A stretch of DNA of 36,528 nucleotides from a virus: the IMG/VR virus record IMGVR_UViG_3300026512_000038, positions 1-36,528 of that record. One strand, 5' to 3'. Each line of letters begins with the position of its first letter. The first letter of the stretch is position 1. Positions 2,402 to 36,528 of the stretch are shown here, in pieces. A model generated the notes under the pieces. That model did not search any database, was not told where the DNA came from, and saw nothing but the letters and a program-made list of their open reading frames with translations. Both the position numbers and the translations under genes were made by a program.

Positions 2402-2812
2402 ATGCCCTTCATCGGAGATTTGGTCGTAAAACAACTGCCTGTAAAGGTCGTTAGAAAGCAATTTCTTTGGTTCTTCTCATGCAAAAAGACAGTTTTGGAG
2501 TGGCAAATCTATGAAGATCTAACCTACAGGGACGACAAACTAGGCATCATAGTCACGGTCGTAAAAGGTGCGGCGACGGACTTTGCTTCAATCCCTCGTC
2601 CTTTTTGGCCTATCCTTCCGCCAGTCGGTCGCTACTCTAAGGCAGCCGTAGTCCATGACTACTGCTACCGTAATGGCCTCTTCGACAGGCAAACGGCTGA
2701 CCTTCTTTTTCTCCATGCAATGGAGGAGCTTGGGGTAGCTAAATGGAAGAGACTCGTTATGTATAACGCTGTGAGAGTTTTTGGTTTTAGCGCATATAGA
2801 GGGCTTATATGA
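2402..2812 (+). CDS. DUF1353 family protein
   Basis: The 136-residue product has the DUF1353 signature: 'TDFASIPRPFWPILPP' (residues ~60-75) followed by a Gly-Arg-Tyr segment and 'VVHDYCYR'. These proteins are common in tail-fibre or lysis-proximal regions of tailed phages; their biochemical role is not established. A clear GGAGG precedes the ATG. The stop overlaps the next ATG (ATGA, 2809-2812). The gene looks less AT-rich than the fibre genes before it, which fits module exchange at this point. Confidence 0.85.
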   Translation: MPFIGDLVVKQLPVKVVRKQFLWFFSCKKTVLEWQIYEDLTYRDDKLGIIVTVVKGAATDFASIPRPFWPILPPVGRYSKAAVVHDYCYRNGLFDRQTADLLFLHAMEELGVAKWKRLVMYNAVRVFGFSAYRGLI

Positions 2813-4146
2813 TTTTGTTTATGTCAAATAGCGGAGAATGTTTACCGATAGCTTATAGAATGCAGAAGGAAGGCACGGAAGTTAAGGTATATTTACATAA
2901 TCTCAAATACAGAAAAAATTATGATAATATTCTCCCAAAGGTAGGGTTGAAAGATTTAAAACGTGCCGTCAAAAAAGCGGAGCTTATTATTTTTGATATC
3001 ACCAGGGTTAATGAGAAAACTCGTCAAGATATTGCCTTACTTAAGATGTTTGGAGCGTCTAAAAATTCTCCAACGGTTTTTGGCCCTGTTGCAGACGAAA
3101 TGAAGGCGATGGGGAAAAAGGTCATCGGTGCATCTACATGGACTGAAAAAATAGAGATGGACAGGAAGTTGGGAAGTGATATAGCTAAAAAGACAGGCTT
3201 AAAAGACCCTGAGTCGGTAGAATTTTCCTCGTTAAAAGAAGGGGTAAAGTTTTTAAAGACGGAAGGGCGTAAAGATTTATGGGTGTTTAAACCAGAGAAT
3301 AATCTTGACCTTGATATGACTTATGTTGAAAAGTTTCATGGTGAGCTAGCTGATAAGATCGCTAATGAATACCGTCAGAGATTAGGAACAGATAAAATAG
3401 AATTTATTTTACAAAAGAGGATGGAAGGGATTGAGATTTCAACTGAGATGTGGTTTAATGGTAAAGATGCTGTCCACTTTAATCACACGATAGAAGACAA
3501 GCGGTTAATGAATTTCAATTTAGGACCTGCAATTGGTAGCCAGAGCAATACGGTCTGGATTAAAAAAGATGAGAATGGGTTGCTGGTTAAGGAGCTTAAA
3601 AGGCTTATCCCTTATCTTAAGAGAGCAAATTATGTTGGTCCCATTGATATAAACGCTATTATTAGCAAAAAAGACCATAAACCTTATTTTTTGGAGTTCT
3701 CGCCTCGCTTTGGGTATGATGCTATATATTGCTTTTTGACGTTTATCAAAGGCAGTTTGACGGACTTCTTTCTAAATGGATTCCAAACTGAATTCTATGG
3801 CGGCTTTGCAAGTTCACAAAGGGTAACGATTCCACCCTTTCCTTATGCGGATAAAGAATTACTTGACGCTATGGCAAAGGATATTTTAATAAAAAATAAA
3901 CTGGAAGATTTTTGGATGGAAGATGTTTACATGGATGATAAAGGCAATATCCGATGCGCAGGGTCTGATGGGATTATTGGAGTAGTAGCGGAGCGGGGCA
4001 ATAGTTTAGGCGGGTCTGTTGGGAATGTGTATAGAAAAATTGATAAATTAAAGATTGCTTCCTATATCCAATACCGAACCGATTTGGGTAAAAGAAGCAG
4101 CAAAGCTCTAAAAACCTTTAAAGAGTGGGGGATTACAGTTTTATGA
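2809..4146 (+). CDS. ATP-grasp ligase, PurD-like
   Basis: The 445-residue product has the layout of phosphoribosylamine-glycine ligase-type ATP-grasp enzymes: an N-terminal Rossmann-like part ('MILFMSNSGE'), a central ATP-binding region ('DLWVFKPENN', ~residues 158-167), and the metal-binding end 'PYFLEFSPRFGYD' (~residues 288-301), like the 'LEFNARFGDPE' segment of PurD. True purine synthesis is unlikely in a phage tail module. The gene overlaps the stop of DUF1353 and the start of a GNAT-like gene (ATGA both times). I infer a ligase that modifies a virion protein, peptide or cell-wall precursor; the substrate cannot be read from the sequence. Confidence 0.75.
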   Translation: MILFMSNSGECLPIAYRMQKEGTEVKVYLHNLKYRKNYDNILPKVGLKDLKRAVKKAELIIFDITRVNEKTRQDIALLKMFGASKNSPTVFGPVADEMKAMGKKVIGASTWTEKIEMDRKLGSDIAKKTGLKDPESVEFSSLKEGVKFLKTEGRKDLWVFKPENNLDLDMTYVEKFHGELADKIANEYRQRLGTDKIEFILQKRMEGIEISTEMWFNGKDAVHFNHTIEDKRLMNFNLGPAIGSQSNTVWIKKDENGLLVKELKRLIPYLKRANYVGPIDINAIISKKDHKPYFLEFSPRFGYDAIYCFLTFIKGSLTDFFLNGFQTEFYGGFASSQRVTIPPFPYADKELLDAMAKDILIKNKLEDFWMEDVYMDDKGNIRCAGSDGIIGVVAERGNSLGGSVGNVYRKIDKLKIASYIQYRTDLGKRSSKALKTFKEWGITVL

Positions 4147-14515: not shown

Positions 14516-14943
14516 TTTAAATCGCTTACAGCCATATCCATAGTGATATTAGCATTTAATCCAGGGTCTATTTTTTGATATAGATTGAATAAGTGATCTA
14601 AAATTTTCTCTAGCCGTCTCTTCTCCTCTTTATCGTTCACCTTCTCCCAAATATCATTGCCTAGTCCCAGCAGGAAGTTTAAATAATACTTTAGGTCAAT
14701 CTCATCATAGTTTAAATTTTCAAAAAACTCTTTGCTCTTATTCATGGTGGTTTTTAACTGTTTATGTAAATTACCCTTAAAACTACCATAAATAAGTTTT
14801 TTAACAGCATCCCTTTGGCGTCTCAGGGCGTTTATATACGCCCAACTACCTCTGGGCAGCTTATATTCTTTTGCCATTAGGACAAAAGGATTATCGTCTA
14901 TACACGCCAGGAAAAAGAACTTTTTTTGATCTTTTTTAGCCAC
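14494..14943 (-). CDS. Hypothetical protein, last gene of the leftward operon
   Basis: I chose the GTG at 14943 because AAAGGAGG lies about seven bases upstream; the in-frame ATG at 14976 lies inside a repeat tract and has no such site. The 149-residue product is Lys/Leu-rich and helical, with 'LPRGSWAYINALRRQRDAVK' in the middle. I do not recognise a family. It is separated from the rest of the operon by a ~230-base degenerate-repeat tract and ends in a hairpin. Confidence 0.7.
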   Translation of the reverse strand: MAKKDQKKFFFLACIDDNPFVLMAKEYKLPRGSWAYINALRRQRDAVKKLIYGSFKGNLHKQLKTTMNKSKEFFENLNYDEIDLKYYLNFLLGLGNDIWEKVNDKEEKRRLEKILDHLFNLYQKIDPGLNANITMDMAVSDLNRLERYF

Positions 14944-14959
14944 TTCAAACCTCCTTTGC

Positions 14960-15172
14960 TTTACAGGATGTTGCATTGCTAGACCGTAGCTTTACAATTC
15001 TTTACACTACTATACCCATGCCCACCATTACGATACGTTACACTGCCGCTGCTTTACCTTACCTTTCTTTGCCACCGCATAGCTATACGGTGCTATACCC
15101 TTGCTATTCAGAACTATACTCATCATTGCCTTTGCGTTTCAAAGCTACTCAATACCTTTGCTTTTCTCCACC
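14960..15172. repeat. Degenerate short-word repeat tract 1 (no gene)
   Basis: This 213-base stretch is full of the words TTTGC, TTACC, TTGC and CTAYACC on the plus strand (GCAAA, GGTAA, GGTATAG on the transcribed minus strand), spaced about 5-6 or 10-12 bases. No gene with a ribosome binding site lies in it. It forms the untranslated gap before the last gene of the leftward operon. Tract 2 (15890-16400) has the same vocabulary. Confidence 0.75.
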
Positions 15173-15174
15173 CT

Positions 15175-15465
15175 TTATTTTTTGCAGGAGATATAAATAA
15201 AAGCATCTCCAGTATATGGGTTAAATTCAAGCCTACTTACATCGTAAAAACATTTATAAGCAGGCTCTTTAGATTCATCTATATAACCGACTAGAGAGAT
15301 AGATGGTTCAATAAAAATAAAAATTCTTTCAACGCCATCCACCAATTTGGTTTTATTAACGCCTGCATGTGTTTCATAAAAAAGGTAACAACTGTTTCCT
15401 TTTATCATTAATATCTCTTTATTAAAATGATAACGAATTATTTTTTTACCTTTTAATAAAAACAT
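15175..15465 (-). CDS. Hypothetical small beta-rich protein
   Basis: The 96-residue product alternates hydrophobic and charged residues ('RYHFNKEILMIKGNSCYLFY', 'RIFIFIEPSISLVGYID'), suggesting a small beta-barrel. GGAGGA precedes the ATG. It is the third gene of a small cassette (15863 down to 15175) bounded on both sides by the degenerate repeat tracts. No family is recognised. Confidence 0.65.
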   Translation of the reverse strand: MFLLKGKKIIRYHFNKEILMIKGNSCYLFYETHAGVNKTKLVDGVERIFIFIEPSISLVGYIDESKEPAYKCFYDVSRLEFNPYTGDAFIYISCKK

Positions 15466-15683: not shown

Positions 15684-15863
15684 TTATTTTTCTTTATAAT
15701 CAGGACATTTATTCACAAACCATATCCAGGAGCAATTTTTTTTATAGGTTTTATCAAAAAATTTACAAGATTTATTTTGACATGGCACTATCATATCATT
15801 ACATAAATTTGTAATTTTATTTTCACGTATCACAATTTCTTTTGTTATTTCTTTTGTCCTCAT
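15684..15863 (-). CDS. Small Cys-rich (zinc-ribbon-like) protein, paralogue B
   Basis: I chose the ATG at 15863, which has GGAGAG a few bases upstream, over an upstream ATG at 15905 that lies at the edge of the repeat tract. The 59-residue product ends with 'PCQNKSCKFF', 'NCSWIWFVNKC' and 'DYK', matching the cysteine pattern of paralogue A at 15467. It is the first gene after the long repeat tract in the direction of transcription. Confidence 0.7.
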   Translation of the reverse strand: MRTKEITKEIVIRENKITNLCNDMIVPCQNKSCKFFDKTYKKNCSWIWFVNKCPDYKEK

Positions 15864-15889
15864 AATATTGCTCTCCTTTTTTTTAACGT

Positions 15890-16400
15890 TGCTAAACGTT
15901 GACAATCCATACTATACGTTACCTTTGCATATGCATAACCTTACCAAACTCTGCCTTACCCTTGCCTCCCCTCACCACACCTTGCTTTACCTTTGCATGT
16001 CTATCCCAAACCTTACCCTGCCTTTGCACCACTGATCTTTGCTTTACTATCCTTTGCCTTTGCCTTGCCCAGCTGAGGTCTGCCCTACCCTGCTTTTGCT
16101 ATGCTTTAGGACACAAAGCCTTACCAATGCTCCGCTCCTTATTACTATTGCTATACTCCGCCCTTGCCTCTCTCTGCCCCGCCTTACCGTTGCCCTACTT
16201 CTCATTGCCACAGCAGGACACAAAGCTTTGCCCTTGCCTTTGCTTTACTACTGATTACTTTGCTATCCTCTGCCATGGCTATGCCTTCTCAACAGTCCAT
16301 TGCTTTACCCTCGCATTGCCTTGATAAACTTTACCATTCATTGCCTTTGCGGAGCCCCTAGCCTATGCAAATCTTTACTTATCTTTTCAGTGCCGTTGCC
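15890..16400. repeat. Degenerate short-word repeat tract 2 (no gene, ~510 bp)
   Basis: This gene-free stretch is built almost wholly of TTTGC, TTACC and TTGCC words on the plus strand; by eye I count about 11, 9 and 12 copies. On the transcribed minus strand these read GCAAA, GGTAA and GGCAA. Spacing is irregular, mostly 5-6 bases or multiples. One exact 12-mer, AGGACACAAAGC, occurs at 16108-16119 and 16215-16226. Stops occur in all minus frames. No CRISPR-like unit, tRNA or promoter is seen. It lies between the RAMP-like gene and the Cys-rich cassette. Confidence 0.8.
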
Positions 16401-16403
16401 CTA

Positions 16404-17054
16404 TTAATTTTTCTTTTTACTCTTCTTTCCCTTTACACGCTCCCATTTAAAGCGCCCATAGCCAGCATTGCGCCACTGCCCTAGTCCTTTGAATTTCCCA
16501 TAATCCAGAAGCGCCTCAATGACCTTAAAGTTTAACTCTTTGTGTGGGAGTAGCGTTATTTTTATCTCAAAGGACATTGGATCAATGTAATCAGAGCTTA
16601 CCAAACTAACTCTGGGACCCTGCGGAGTCATTGCCCTTAACGGGCGCTGTAAAGCTCCGTCTGGATGTTCTTTAAGCCAGATCCAGTCTGGTTCAACAAA
16701 AACGTAATTGTCTATCTTAGATTTAAGATTTTTGATCTTTAGCGCCTGCTTAAGCACGTTACCTGCCTCTTTAAGGAACCCTTTTATCTGGTATGCTTTT
16801 AGATAAATCCCATCGGGGTCCGAGAAAAACCCTGTCTCATTATCACCATCTGGGGTCATCTTTTGTTCAATTTGTTGCTGCATCTCCTGTTCATCTAACT
16901 GTTCTGGATCTTCATCTGTCAAATCTTCGCTATTGCCATAATATTTCTCTTGAACGTATTTTCTAAATAATTCTTTGTTTTTTGGTAATGACCCTAAAAG
17001 TTTCTCCAGTAAAATTATTTTATAGCGCCTGCTTTCAAATTCAAAATCGCTCAT
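16404..17054 (-). CDS. Phage protein with RAMP-like (Cas7/Cas5-type) features
   Basis: The 216-residue product begins with 'YKIILLEKLLGSLPKN' (residues ~11-26), has an acidic Gln-rich insert (~42-72), then 'LKAYQIKGFLKEAG' (~85-98), 'PRVSLVSSDY', and near the end 'KFKGLGQWRNAGYGRFKWE'. The first and last strand-like segments with a Gly-rich loop, and the 'IKG.LKE' motif like 'IPGSSLKGALR', recall the RAMP superfamily of CRISPR proteins. The family is widespread in phages but has no named function that I know. RNA binding is an inference. It ends next to the large repeat tract. Confidence 0.6.
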   Translation of the reverse strand: MSDFEFESRRYKIILLEKLLGSLPKNKELFRKYVQEKYYGNSEDLTDEDPEQLDEQEMQQQIEQKMTPDGDNETGFFSDPDGIYLKAYQIKGFLKEAGNVLKQALKIKNLKSKIDNYVFVEPDWIWLKEHPDGALQRPLRAMTPQGPRVSLVSSDYIDPMSFEIKITLLPHKELNFKVIEALLDYGKFKGLGQWRNAGYGRFKWERVKGKKSKKKN

Positions 17055-18017: not shown

Positions 18018-18722
18018 TCAACATATTGTTATTTTTGTTTTAGTTAGAACTATCCCTCTTACTTCTGCTAATATTCTTTTTTTATCGCTATGAGCATCAG
18101 ACAGGTGCAAAATCCAAATATGCTGGAGCTTAGACAGGTCGTTTCTTTTTAAGAAGACAAGTAAACCGTTTAACCCTAAATGAGTTTTCAATATTCTTTT
18201 TCTGACGGATGCAGTAAGGTCAGAATTTAGCAATAAATCCTCGCAATAGTTACATTCAATGGCAAGGTGTGTTATGTCTTTGAAACGATAAGGCACATAG
18301 GCAGTATCAGTTATGTAAAGAAACCTTCTCCCTGGATAATCTATTACCAGCCCTAATGGCTCAAGAGCATCATGCACAAGAGGAAAGAAGTTAAATTGTA
18401 TCTTAGGAGAAAAAGAAACTGGGATAAAACTTTTTACTAGGTTAATATTCCAACGGTTTGATAATCTTAAAAAACTTTTTGTTCCTTCTGATAAAAATAT
18501 AGGGATAGTTTTCTCTGCTATTTCTTTAATAGCTTTAGAATGATCCTTATGTTCGTGGGAGACAAAACAAAAATCTATGTCGGCAAAAGATAAATTTTCA
18601 ATATATAGTTTTTTTTGAATTTCTTTGAAAGGTAGGCCACATTCAATTAAACCAGTGAAGTCTAAATGCTCTAAAATATAGCAATTTCCTTTACTCCCTG
18701 AGCTTAAAACCTTTAAATTCAT
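18018..18722 (-). CDS. Metallo-beta-lactamase-fold hydrolase, WalJ/YycJ-like
   Basis: The 234-residue product has the metal-binding set of the fold: H56-E-H58-K-D60-H61, then H117-D118, D139 in 'YITDTAY', and a late His in 'LHLSDAH' (206-211). The N-terminal 'LSSGSKGNCYI' is typical of the YycJ/WalJ branch, in which exonuclease activity on DNA ends has been described. In phages such proteins commonly sit next to RecT and an SbcC-like ATPase, as here. I infer DNA end processing that feeds RecT annealing. GGAGG precedes the ATG. Confidence 0.85.
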   Translation of the reverse strand: MNLKVLSSGSKGNCYILEHLDFTGLIECGLPFKEIQKKLYIENLSFADIDFCFVSHEHKDHSKAIKEIAEKTIPIFLSEGTKSFLRLSNRWNINLVKSFIPVSFSPKIQFNFFPLVHDALEPLGLVIDYPGRRFLYITDTAYVPYRFKDITHLAIECNYCEDLLLNSDLTASVRKRILKTHLGLNGLLVFLKRNDLSKLQHIWILHLSDAHSDKKRILAEVRGIVLTKTKITIC

Positions 18723-18759: not shown

Positions 18760-19656
18760 TTAAAATCCAGGGTCTTCTCCCAAATCTTCTTCTTGTGGTG
18801 AAGACCCTTTTTTGCCTTCCTGTTTAGGTTGTTCTCCATTCGCCTGTTTTTCTACCTCTTCGTCAAAATCAACTGTTGCTGTTTCAGCTTCAACAATTTC
18901 CTCAACTTTTGCTTCTTCCACCTCTACTGTTTGATTGTTTACGGTCTCTACAAAAAGATCAGAGTCATCAGAACTTTGAATTATCTGTTTGCAAGCTCTT
19001 CTAATAACAGTCTTCTTTATCATTTCTTCCAGAAATTCAGCATGAGTAGAGCCTTTTTTAAGCTCACCGTTCTCCAAAACTGGGCGCATAGGGGATTTTT
19101 GCCAAGACTTTTTAATTTGCTCATAGGTCATTATCTCTGTCTTTAGCACATTCCCTTTGCCATCTAGCAACACACAATAAGCACCTTCAGGTTGGTTGTT
19201 CTTGTTAGCTAGTTTTTGTTTATGTTTGGTAATATATTTTTCACCAAACTTAATTTCGTATTCAAACTCATCACCTTCATAAACCACTTCTGCCACTATT
19301 TTATCTATTCGTGGATCAGCTCGCCTTGCCATGGTTTCATATCCATAACGGCTAGGCTGCATAATTAATTGCTTGCCGTAGGCGATAAAATAACATTGTT
19401 TTTTAGCAGGGTTAAGACCAAAAATCACCATCTCATAAAGAGCGTTTGCAATGCTAGCCTGAGAACATACTTGCAAAACTGGTTGGTTGTTCTTTGTAGT
19501 AATATGCTGAAGTTCCAGCCAAGCTGACATTAAGGCATTTTGGGGAGAATAGTTAGGTGGCAAAACTAATTGGTTATTTTTTTGCAGTTTTGTCACCTTT
19601 CCCATAACCATGCTTACAACGTCCTGTTTTTTTGCCACTGCTTTTTGTTGGGTCAT
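18760..19656 (-). CDS. recT: RecT-family single-strand annealing protein
   Basis: The 298-residue product has the RecT core: 'LPPNYSPQNALMSAW', 'SIANALYEMVIFGLNP', 'QCYFIAYGKQLIMQPSRYGY' and 'KKSWQKSP', with an acidic variable C-terminus after ~225. RecT binds single-stranded DNA and anneals complementary strands. With the nuclease-like and SbcC-like neighbours it forms a phage recombination module. The gene is preceded by GGAGG, two bases after the upstream gene. Confidence 0.95.
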   Translation of the reverse strand: MTQQKAVAKKQDVVSMVMGKVTKLQKNNQLVLPPNYSPQNALMSAWLELQHITTKNNQPVLQVCSQASIANALYEMVIFGLNPAKKQCYFIAYGKQLIMQPSRYGYETMARRADPRIDKIVAEVVYEGDEFEYEIKFGEKYITKHKQKLANKNNQPEGAYCVLLDGKGNVLKTEIMTYEQIKKSWQKSPMRPVLENGELKKGSTHAEFLEEMIKKTVIRRACKQIIQSSDDSDLFVETVNNQTVEVEEAKVEEIVEAETATVDFDEEVEKQANGEQPKQEGKKGSSPQEEDLGEDPGF

Positions 19657-19979: not shown

Positions 19980-20019
19980 TGGGATTAAAATATTTACAAT
20001 TTTTACAAATCTTATCCAT
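19969..20019 (-). CDS. Short CxxC-coding frame, upstream part of a possible frameshifted gene
   Basis: ATG at 20019 has GGGGG upstream and overlaps the stop of the SbcC-like gene (ATGGATAA), the arrangement of a coupled start. The 16 codons encode 'CKNCKYFNP', the beginning of a common phage zinc-knuckle type, and then stop. The body of the gene is in the +1 frame (19659-19979). Either a programmed +1 shift, a consensus error, or a real mutation would explain this. Confidence 0.5.
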   Translation of the reverse strand: MDKICKNCKYFNPNGL

Positions 20020-21904
20020 TGTTGCCCCCAGTTATTTTAAGTTGTTTCTGTCCTTCTTTAACATATAGTTTAACAATTTGAGACTTAGTGGGAATTATTC
20101 TCACGGTGCTTTCTGCGTTGTCTATAAAAATAGGGGCATAGAAATTATAATGTTCAGATAAAGTATTTATAATGTCCAACCCCACATTTATCTGGGCGCC
20201 CCTATTAAGACCTTTATCAAAAGGCACTCCTTGATACAATATTTCACAGCACTCAGTTATACCGTCATTAATTTGTTGTTCAAATAATTTAAATTTAGCC
20301 AGCTTAAATTTAGAGTTAATTTTTTCTTCAAGTAGTTCTACCTTCTTAACAATAAATCTCTCGCAAAGATAAAGTTCCCTTTCTAGTTTTTCATATTCTC
20401 TTACCAAAGTCTTCTCTTCCTTTTTAAGCTCTTCAACCCTGTTATTTATTCTTTTTGCTGCTTCTATCTCAGCCAGCTTTTGCCTTTCCTGTTCAAGCTG
20501 AAGTTCCAAGTCTGAAGTATCTATCTGGAATTGAGCTTTTGTTATTTGTTTATCTATTTCTTCTAATTGCTGATGAAGGTTTGAGATTTCTTGAGAAGTA
20601 ATCAAAGAATCTATATGTGTAAAATCTTCCCATTGTTGTTGTGCTTCTTTATAAGCCCTCTTTATTTCTTTTTGTTGTTTTTGTAGAGCTTTTATCGTTT
20701 CTATATTTCTCTTAACCTCATTTTCCATTATCTCAGCTGATTGCTTGAGTTCCTGTCCTTGCTTTTTGATTTCTTTAAGCTGATTTTCTTTTTGTGTCTG
20801 AAACTTTTCATGAATCTCTTTAATTTTCTCTTGTGGAAAAGGTTGCCCACAAGTGGGACAAATTTCTTTTATCTCTGGTTGTTGGTTGAATATCTCTTTG
20901 TATTGTTTTCTTAATTCTTCTAGCTGTTGTTTTTTTATTTCTATTTGTTTGTTTAACCAATCATTTTTATTCTGGAATTTTTCTATTTCTTGATAATTTT
21001 GCTCTTGTTGCCTCTCTATTTCTAAAACTTTTTGCCAAAGACCCTTCTCTTTTATTTGTATCCTGTCCCTCTCTTCTTGTTCTAACTTAGCAAGTTTATC
21101 CTGCAATTCTCTTTTTTTGGTTATTAAATTTTCAATTTTATCACCACTTTTAACCGCCTTTATTTTGCTTTCAAGTTCTTTAATCCTCTGCTTTATCTCT
21201 TCAGAATTAACAATATCTTGTGGCAACGCTGCCATAAGCTCGTCTATCCTAGCTGGGATTTCTTTTAATCGTTTATTTATATCCCTTTGCTGTGATTTAA
21301 CAGCCTTAATGTGGTCTTGAATAGACCTTTTTGAGATGACCTCAAGCAGAGGGACAAGACTTTCGTCCTGCTCAATTACTTGCTGAGGAGACAGGTCTCC
21401 AAACATATCAATAAGGATTTGCCTCCTCTTCTCCCAATGTAAGGAAGGAAAATAGAAAGGATTGGTAACTAAACGGAAGATTTCCTCTGGGGCAAGCTCT
21501 TTGAGTTTTGCGTCCCAATCTTTCTTTTTGGCTGGGACGTCATTTATAAAATATTGGAAGGTATGGCCTGAGAAGGTTGCAGTGGCTGAGCCTCTCTTTT
21601 TTGTCCACTTCTCCTTCATAACTTTTTTCAATTTTATCTTTTCGCTATCAACTTCAATTTCAGTTTCAACTTCCACATCAAGGTTGTGAATAGGATTACC
21701 AGTAGAGTCTAAAGGCTTAACTGCAAAATCAGCTTTTCCCTGACTATCTTTACCAAACAACAACCAGAGAAAAGCATCAAAGAGCGATGTTTTTCCCGTG
21801 CCGTTGTCTCCATAGACGGAGACGTTACGGCCTTCAGGCCTGAAAGAGAATTCCTTAATACCTTTGAAGTTTTTCAAACGTAAAGAAATAAGTTTAATTT
21901 GCAT
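20012..21904 (-). CDS. SbcC/Rad50-like ATPase with zinc-hook motif
   Basis: I chose the ATG at 21904 (GGAGG upstream, product begins 'MQIKLISLRLKNFKGIKEF' like the family). An in-frame ATG at 21973 with GGGAGG is an alternative. The 630-residue product has Walker A 'GDNGTGKTS' (32-40), long coiled coils (~190-345 and ~355-510), a hook C349-P-T-C352 between them, and a C-terminal signature-like 'GLNRGAQINVG' plus Walker-B-like 'APIFIDNAES'. Such proteins regulate a nuclease at DNA ends. With the metallo-beta-lactamase-fold protein and RecT, it completes a recombination set. Confidence 0.92.
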   Translation of the reverse strand: MQIKLISLRLKNFKGIKEFSFRPEGRNVSVYGDNGTGKTSLFDAFLWLLFGKDSQGKADFAVKPLDSTGNPIHNLDVEVETEIEVDSEKIKLKKVMKEKWTKKRGSATATFSGHTFQYFINDVPAKKKDWDAKLKELAPEEIFRLVTNPFYFPSLHWEKRRQILIDMFGDLSPQQVIEQDESLVPLLEVISKRSIQDHIKAVKSQQRDINKRLKEIPARIDELMAALPQDIVNSEEIKQRIKELESKIKAVKSGDKIENLITKKRELQDKLAKLEQEERDRIQIKEKGLWQKVLEIERQQEQNYQEIEKFQNKNDWLNKQIEIKKQQLEELRKQYKEIFNQQPEIKEICPTCGQPFPQEKIKEIHEKFQTQKENQLKEIKKQGQELKQSAEIMENEVKRNIETIKALQKQQKEIKRAYKEAQQQWEDFTHIDSLITSQEISNLHQQLEEIDKQITKAQFQIDTSDLELQLEQERQKLAEIEAAKRINNRVEELKKEEKTLVREYEKLERELYLCERFIVKKVELLEEKINSKFKLAKFKLFEQQINDGITECCEILYQGVPFDKGLNRGAQINVGLDIINTLSEHYNFYAPIFIDNAESTVRIIPTKSQIVKLYVKEGQKQLKITGGNNG

Positions 21905-21995: not shown

Positions 21996-22406
21996 TTATA
22001 AAACAATCCACTTTTTATGCTGGAAGATAGACTTTTTAATAACACGTCCATCCTCCAGTTTTTCCTCCACTACCTGTCTCTCGCTATGGGAGAAAAGGTA
22101 GCGAGGATACACACCAGCATTCTCTTCCACAACTTTACAAAATCTGGCCACCAGCCACATAAAAGCTGGTGACCCTGCTGGAAATATAACTCCAGCGTAA
22201 GAAAAGTTGTCTGGAAAAGCAGCTTCCACCACCCGACGAGCGAGATTTTTTAATGCATCCTCGTCAGATGGTGTGTTGAGGAGTTCTCCCCGAAGATGCT
22301 CAGGAAGCTCCTCAATTTCTACATGCTCAAGGAAAACCTCATCCTCCAACTCTTTTATCTGAGCTGGAGTGAGGTCATGGTTTAATATCTTTAAGACTTT
22401 TGCCAT
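21996..22406 (-). CDS. Csx20-like protein (candidate viral ring nuclease, anti-type III CRISPR)
   Basis: The 136-residue product has the motifs I know from the CRISPR-associated Csx20 family: N9-H10-x-L-T13-x2-Q16 near the N-terminus, 'ELPEHL' (33-38), 'NTPSD' (44-48), a Gly-rich strand 'FPAGSPAFMWLVA' (75-87) where family members have 'QGDFGATY'-type sequence, and a C-terminal 'SHSERQVVEEKLEDGRVIKK' like the 'TTKRE..E...DG.v' tail. Csx20 is linked to type III CRISPR loci, and members of the Csx15/16/20 group are considered cyclic oligoadenylate-binding or ring-nuclease proteins. As first gene of the strong leftward promoter, early defence inhibition is the natural inference. Not experimentally known here. 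Confidence 0.72.
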   Translation of the reverse strand: MAKVLKILNHDLTPAQIKELEDEVFLEHVEIEELPEHLRGELLNTPSDEDALKNLARRVVEAAFPDNFSYAGVIFPAGSPAFMWLVARFCKVVEENAGVYPRYLFSHSERQVVEEKLEDGRVIKKSIFQHKKWIVL

Positions 22407-22429
22407 GATGTCCTCCTTTTTTATAGGTT

Positions 22430-22458
22430 TTCATAGTTGTTGAAAAGCATTATATAAT
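22430..22458 (+). promoter_or_regulatory. Rightward early promoter overlapping the leftward one
   Basis: TTCATA (22430-22435) and TATAAT (22453-22458) are separated by 17 bases. The -10 box is part of the palindrome ATTATATAAT (22449-22458) that also holds the leftward -10. The two promoters therefore overlap face to face and probably exclude each other. The -35 matches the consensus at four of six bases. Confidence 0.6.
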
Positions 22459-22476
22459 TTCATATTGTCTTGTCAA
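22449..22476 (-). promoter_or_regulatory. Leftward sigma-70-type promoter
   Basis: Read on the minus strand: TTGACA (complement of 22471-22476), a 16-base spacer, and TATAAT (complement of 22449-22454), both boxes perfect. Transcription would begin near 22442, about 36 bases before the ATG at 22406. An inverted repeat TCTTG-T-CAAGA (22468-22478) covers the -35 box and could be an operator. Confidence 0.85.
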
Positions 22477-35629: not shown

Positions 35630-36528
35630 ATGTATATACCTTTTCCAATTTATGATTTTAAAAGTGGTCTGAAACTTGATAAAGAACCATTTTTGCTTCC
35701 TGCCGATGCCTTTACGGTTTTTCAGAATGTTTATATAGATAAAGGTTGTCTTGTCAAAAGAAAAGGAATAGAAAACTTATCGTTAAATATAGATGAACCT
35801 ATTTTGGGAATAAAAACTTTAAGAGACAATGCCAATAATGTTTATAATATTGTTTTTGGAAAACAAAAAATATTTTGTTTAGATTTGTTTAATTCTCGAA
35901 TTACTGAAATATCATCTATGTTGAATGGGAGGGATGATAGTTATGTGATAGCAGATGAATGGAAGTTCTATCTTTTTTGTTCTAACCAAATTGATCGACC
36001 TTTTTATGTATGGAATAATGGAGCAGAATGGTTAAATGTTGATTTTGATAATGATGGACAAAATGATATAGAACGATGTTTAGCTTGCATACAATTTAAA
36101 GGACGACTTCTTTTATTCAGTCCGATGGAAAAAGGGACTTTTTATCCACAAAGGATAAGATGGTCTAAAGTTAATCTACCTTTTGATTGGACTAATGATG
36201 ATTTTTTAGATATTCCTACAAGTGAAATTATTGTTTCTGCACAAAGGTTAGAAGATAAAATAATAATTTGGTGTTCTAATTCTGTATGGGAATTGTTATA
36301 TACAGCAAATTATGATCTACCTTTTGTAGTGAGATGTATAGCAAGAGAAATAAAAACATATAGTCCTTTTAGTGGTGTGAAAGCAAATAATCAAATTTTT
36401 AACGTAACGGAAACAGGAATAGTAGCAACTGACAGTATTAATGTAGAAAGAATTGATTATAATATATATGATTTTAATTTATTTCAAAATTTAGAGAAAA
36501 AGCAGTTAATTTTTGGATATCATTGTAA
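35630..36528 (+). CDS. Tail nozzle/stabilisation-like protein, N-terminal part (continues at base 128)
   Basis: ATG at 35630 opens a frame that has no stop to the right end; across the closed circle it continues to 740, giving 503 residues. The start 'YIPFPIYDFKSGLKLDKEPF' and 'LPADAFTVFQNVYIDKGCLV' followed by 'KRKG' is the typical start of phage tail proteins such as T7 gp12 (nozzle) and P22 gp10 (packaged DNA stabilisation protein), which fold as beta-propeller-like tubes. The gene follows the adaptor and a fibre gene. I cannot tell the two families apart from sequence alone. Confidence 0.82.
   Translation, partial: MYIPFPIYDFKSGLKLDKEPFLLPADAFTVFQNVYIDKGCLVKRKGIENLSLNIDEPILGIKTLRDNANNVYNIVFGKQKIFCLDLFNSRITEISSMLNGRDDSYVIADEWKFYLFCSNQIDRPFYVWNNGAEWLNVDFDNDGQNDIERCLACIQFKGRLLLFSPMEKGTFYPQRIRWSKVNLPFDWTNDDFLDIPTSEIIVSAQRLEDKIIIWCSNSVWELLYTANYDLPFVVRCIAREIKTYSPFSGVKANNQIFNVTETGIVATDSINVERIDYNIYDFNLFQNLEKKQLIFGYHC
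36402..36528. repeat. Terminal direct repeat, right copy (circular closure)
   Basis: This is the exact copy of bases 1-127. Removing one copy gives a 36,401-bp circle in which the reading frame from 35630 continues at base 128 and stops at 740. It supports a complete genome (circular or circularly permuted by headful packaging). Confidence 0.95.

Follow-up and report, generated by a model that had tools for sequence, protein, structure and literature searches.

Does a small gene at the head of a leftward phage operon encode a ring nuclease directed against type III CRISPR? An earlier note, made from the sequence alone, had proposed this for the gene at 21996-22406 (minus strand), here called csx20-like. 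We examined the proposal in the whole stretch of DNA of 36,528 nucleotides that holds the gene (the window), in a sister phage (L002, IMGVR_UViG_3300021505_000003) and in related viral and plasmid records. The window ends in an exact direct terminal repeat of 127 bp (1-127 and 36402-36528), and the record thus probably represents a complete phage genome of some 36.4 kb. PHROGs matches in the window include a terminase, a portal, a major head protein, a primase/helicase, SbcC and RecT; those to the portal and primase are distant and widely spread, pointing to no single host. Among the structural genes, 2809-4146 (plus strand) encodes an enzyme of the ATP-grasp type that is akin to phosphoribosylamine-glycine ligase (TIGR00877, E=5.8e-12, under the cut-off). 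Neither Cas10 nor a CRISPR array was seen among the window ORFs and repeats examined, and the csx20-like gene therefore lies outside any complete phage-borne type III system, the one Cas-like gene seen being a single gene of Cas7 type at a distance of about 5 kb.

The csx20-like gene, its promoter and its operon

The csx20-like open reading frame runs from an ATG through 136 codons to a stop, all within 21996-22406, and a ribosome-binding site, AAGGAGG (22412-22418, minus strand), stands 5 nt upstream of the ATG. Ahead of it is the perfect sigma-70 type promoter that had been claimed for the gene, TTGACA-16-TATAAT (22449-22476, minus strand), which matches the consensus at 12 of 12 positions, compared with 10 for the runner-up site in 5.8 kb. 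In L002, whose csx20-like protein is 82% identical, the promoter is identical (12/12, 16-nt spacer). The protein is probably made early in infection from this strong host-type promoter. Several sequence motifs named in the earlier note could be read directly from the translation: the start N-H-x-L-T-x2-Q is present as NHDLTPAQ, LPE as ELPEH and N-x-P as NTP. The tail, given as E-x2-DG, actually reads E-E-K-L-E-D-G, so that the literal motif is absent, and the supposedly Gly-rich central strand, FPAGSPAF, holds one glycine, the invariant Gly78. The ratio dN/dS between the window and L002 copies is 0.18, and the gene is under purifying selection; this value, together with the sister identity and full-length profile matches at E values of about 1e-9 to 1e-10, indicates that the gene is more than a chance reading frame. 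We dropped the idea of a relic gene in view of the same dN/dS and the intact frame.

The gene had been described as standing alone at the operon head. It is indeed first but is not alone, since a gene for an SbcC/Rad50-like ATPase (20012-21904, minus strand; phrog_77, E=1.6e-77) follows about 90 nt downstream, as RecT does about 20 nt downstream in L002. Next in the leftward operon are the genes for a RecT ssDNA-annealing protein (18760-19656, minus strand; PF03837, E=1.3e-35) and a metallo-beta-lactamase-fold hydrolase (18018-18722, minus strand; PF12706, E=4.5e-13; phrog_392, E=6.8e-59). These three genes separate the csx20-like gene from the leftward genes that the two phages share, whereas the corresponding place in L002 is taken by another RecT gene and one for a PD-(D/E)XK nuclease; the SbcC-like and hydrolase genes are missing there, and no SbcC-like gene was found anywhere in the L002 stretch. 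The operon-head position of the csx20-like gene is thus constant while its neighbours change. The company of SbcC-like, RecT and nuclease-fold genes could also speak for a role outside defence, in phage gene regulation or as part of a recombination operon, and plasmid relatives likewise adjoin RecT and lambda-exonuclease genes. We consider such a role improbable, since L002 retains both gene and promoter although the genes beside them are gone or different. Moreover, around 76 non-redundant viral relatives (mainly of the LTQH clade described below) the neighbours varied, each neighbour family being confined to 8 loci at most; a stand-alone accessory gene would be expected to show such variety. 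The window and IncT-type plasmids both place csx20-like genes with RecT operons, but the neighbours at these 76 loci do not support this link as a general one.

Family membership and predicted fold

At E<=10 the sole NCBIfam match of the protein was CAS_Csx20 (NF040559; E=2.7e-10, 40.7 bits), with residues 5-133 aligned to positions 2-121 of 124, nearly the full profile. PADLOC likewise returned Csx20 (E=1.2e-9), its combined Csx15/20 profile being weaker, and the separate NCBIfam profiles of Csx15 and Csx16 gave no match at E<=10. Neither Pfam (E<=1) nor PHROGs yielded a match, and the DUF1874 (AcrIII-1) domain is absent from the protein at the same Pfam threshold. The Csx20 assignment made earlier is therefore borne out by the full-length match to CAS_Csx20, the PADLOC match, the conserved residues and the tree, and no unrelated family was matched, an outcome that the note had named as one that would refute it. 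As judged by sequence, the window protein is a phage-encoded member of the Csx20 superfamily. Of the observations counted against a ring-nuclease reading, two concern sequence. The first is the score of 40.7 bits, which lies below the curated NF040559 equivalog cut-off of 70 bits (a CRISPR-encoded Arcobacter Csx20 scores 157.7 bits), and for this reason we call the protein Csx20-like rather than a Csx20 equivalog. The second is its low identity to CRISPR-linked Csx20, 27% for Arcobacter and 23% for Persicobacter, which is similar to its distance from other phage copies; the CRISPR-linked sample consists of these two plasmid copies together with the library profiles.

Searches with tblastn found relatives in a Manatee Spring phage, three Fusobacterium phages, Rhodothermus phage RM378 and, as a fragment, Pasteurella phage Pm86; an Arcobacter plasmid also gave a match, to the csx20 gene of its type III-A locus. 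The phage copies that were run against the NF040559 profile all match it and all fall under the cut-off. The Pm86 fragment (L008, 309-509) covers the C-terminal half of a Csx20-like gene, lacks annotation and is perhaps a remnant. Two scans of genome contigs returned no cellular Csx20. Alignment scans of IMG/VR gave 48 loci and then 157 stretches encoding relatives, two overlapping sets that place the viral superfamily at a lower bound of at least 157 stretches. Most of the 157 belong to a clade whose proteins start N-L-T-Q-H (LTQH). Members of this viral and plasmid clade (L016-L141) begin N-L-T-Q-H-x-A-T and carry GGAP and DGSVRK motifs; those tested had no Pfam assignment and no credible PHROG match. 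The clade also matched 215 plasmid records, and the wider superfamily is present on conjugative plasmids of Enterobacterales, namely in Citrobacter, Providencia and Proteus. In this order type III CRISPR is uncommon, and some members of the superfamily therefore probably serve other ends, which also counts against the ring-nuclease reading.

The same plasmid relatives raise the question of whether the window protein, as ring nuclease or as binder, targets a signal outside type III CRISPR, such as the cA3 of CBASS or of another cyclic nucleotide defence. In Hoikkala et al. 2025 (PMC12409355), cA3 is also degraded by Csx20, though weakly and at high enzyme concentration. In our tree, however, the LTQH clade is split (99/95) from a clade in which the window protein stands with the two CRISPR copies and the remaining phage copies. 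The tree does not resolve the branching order inside the latter, but it places the window protein on the CRISPR-linked side, apart from the plasmid/LTQH clade, and we regard another signal as unlikely.

In an alignment of eight members (A1: the window protein and its L002 counterpart, the Arcobacter Csx20 linked to type III CRISPR, and five further phage proteins), H10, Q16, G78, R110 and E114 are invariant, and H10, G78 and R110 remain so across 37 viral sequences. An AlphaFold (AF2) model from 37 sequences (pLDDT 85, pTM 0.74) has the topology b-a-b-a-a-b-a-b-b; it is Rossmann-like, and its chain closes, like that of CARF proteins, with a long antiparallel hairpin. Such an ending is expected where a turn takes the place of the last crossover in a CARF-type fold (PMC13148439). 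In the Foldseek comparison, which the earlier note had suggested as a check, the search against the PDB gave nothing at E<=0.001 and only a weak match to a CARF protein, Csm6 (9w3w; probability 0.91, E=0.02), a further point against the ring-nuclease reading. Against viral models there were three matches at E<=0.001, all unnamed or uncharacterised. By sequence no solved structure was credibly matched, and Armadillo matches were taken for helix-repeat artefacts.

In the model His10 sits in the b1-a1 loop. Csx15, which probably belongs to the same fold class, has its catalytic His in this loop and needs it for activity (PMC13148439); on topology, His10 may be the equivalent residue. Binding and cleavage need not go together in this fold class, since some Csx15 proteins sequester cA4 uncleaved (PMC13148439), and the window protein could in principle be a sponge that holds cA4 (or another cyclic oligoadenylate, cOA) tightly without cutting it. 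Distant relatives on IncT-type and similar conjugative plasmids (L144, 7995-8375; L145, 7989-8369), whose genes lie between RecT/lambda-exonuclease and MoxR/VWA genes, have lost both the conserved His and the GG motif, L144 reading NLTTY and INAKAFF at these sites and L145 being similar. These plasmid proteins are possibly binding-only variants, and such variants may thus exist in the superfamily. The window protein nevertheless retains His10 and the other shared residues, His10 pointing rather to cleavage, and the Csx20 tested by Hoikkala et al. is an efficient cA4 nuclease (PMC12409355). We therefore think it unlikely that the window protein is a sponge.

A Cas7-like gene and a G-periodic array

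The lone Cas7-like gene (16404-17054, minus strand) lies on the same strand as the csx20-like gene and probably in the same operon. Pfam, NCBIfam and PHROG gave no assignment for its product, which is 93% conserved in two sister phages and was recognized as a Cas7/Csm3-like RAMP protein by Foldseek of an AF2 model (pLDDT 82) against the PDB. This search gave 102 matches at E<=0.001; the best 50 of these all come from CRISPR effector complexes, with type VII Cas7 (E=6.6e-8) and the Csm complexes of type III-A at the top. A profile of 36 relatives run against the PDB agreed, with Cas7 at E=8.6e-4 and Csm4 at E=7e-3. Relatives are encoded on at least 105 IMG/VR stretches (L153-L232 among them), and the gene is phage-encoded, outside any CRISPR locus.

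Beside the Cas7-like gene is a noncoding array in which Gs recur every about 5.17 nt (15754-16385, minus strand, edges approximate). A second, weaker G-periodic stretch (14851-15300, minus strand, edges approximate) lies between two small genes and overlaps the ends of neighbouring ORFs. Counting as an array any stretch in which the power of the G periodicity at 5.08-5.28 nt exceeded a fixed threshold, we found one on the strand of the gene, no more than about 1.6 kb away, in 72 of 85 Cas7-like loci, and in 0 of 115 control viral loci. The threshold was set after the data were seen, and the 85 loci are related to one another; even so, the contrast far exceeds the effect of that choice. Further examples are L002 8555-9054, L142 2780-3279, L149 6532-7151 and L154 3504-4263. 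The autocorrelation of G peaks at 5, 10, 21, 26, 31, 36 and 62 nt, giving a superperiod of 31 nt that spans six G positions (5.17 nt being 31/6). The arrays have a median length of 540 nt; their unit is approximately G-C-A-A-N, and an additional base is interposed, most commonly after four or five units. Rfam held no credible match to the array, and the literature searched, which was covered incompletely, gave no description of the pair of Cas7-like protein and array.

The Cas7 fold and the strand bias suggest an RNA-coating role, and the array may give rise to an RNA that the Cas7-like protein binds. A tentative extension, which we hold as a possibility rather than an expectation, is that the Cas7/Csm3-like protein coats the G-periodic transcript as a guide-less ribonucleoprotein, for example a type III decoy or inhibitor, while the Csx20-like protein clears cA4. 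If this were true, protein and array would make up a type of viral system for which we found no description; the gene and its periodic array may in any case be an undescribed phage RNA-protein system, and one that is directly testable. The csx20-like gene was found in 0 of 20 viral records that have the Cas7-like gene, which rules it out as a regular partner, and the pairing in the window may be coincidence.

Proposed function and relation to known systems

The reading that we favour, and consider reasonably probable from the profile matches, shared residues, tree, promoter and phage context, is that the Csx20-like protein is a cA4 ring nuclease against type III CRISPR, working like Csx20. Phage RNA would trigger the type III complex of the host, the Cas10 of which would then make cyclic tetra-adenylate (cA4). 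A dimer of the Csx20-like protein may bind cA4 in its CARF-like pocket and cut it to linear products, a step in which His10 of the b1-a1 loop would probably take part, and cA4-activated effectors would thereby be kept off.

Viral ring nucleases have already been described, AcrIII-1, AcrIII-2 and relatives of Crn4 occurring in phages. The idea that a Csx20-type viral protein would be a separate solution has been overtaken by the literature: Hoikkala et al. 2025 (PMC12409355) report efficient cA4 ring nuclease activity of Csx20 in vitro and its presence in 4 of 28,114 phage genomes, so that the concept was right in outline but is already published. The window protein is a new, diverged representative of a kind already known in phages. 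What is new is the extent of the viral superfamily, which at no fewer than 157 IMG/VR stretches is much larger than the four phage genomes reported. Csx20-like genes are thus common in viruses and plasmids. If the window protein cleaves cA4, it would extend the few known phage ways of silencing cOA signalling by one more, independent viral lineage, and because some plasmid copies are without the presumed catalytic His, nuclease and sponge forms are open to comparison.

Compared with known systems, the window protein is closest to Csx20 (NF040559), with which it shares full-length homology, a similar length, the residues H10, Q16, G78, R110 and E114 and probably, to judge by the model, a CARF-like topology; it differs in being encoded by a phage outside a CRISPR locus, in its divergence from the two CRISPR copies and in scoring below the curated cut-off. 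With the phage Csx20 of Hoikkala et al. (PMC12409355) it has in common the superfamily, the phage genome and the proposed role, but the window phage and L002 form a separate deep viral branch. Csx15, a cA4 sponge or slow ring nuclease, resembles it in its probable CARF-type fold class and in the His of the b1-a1 loop, whereas Csx20 is the one family of the two that the window protein matched in NCBIfam. The likeness to the viral ring nuclease AcrIII-1/Crn2 (DUF1874) lies in the proposed function, removal of cA4 during infection, the families being unrelated. Similarly, AcrIII-2/Crn5 is a viral enzyme against cA4 but has a SAVED fold and belongs to another protein family (PMC12751052).
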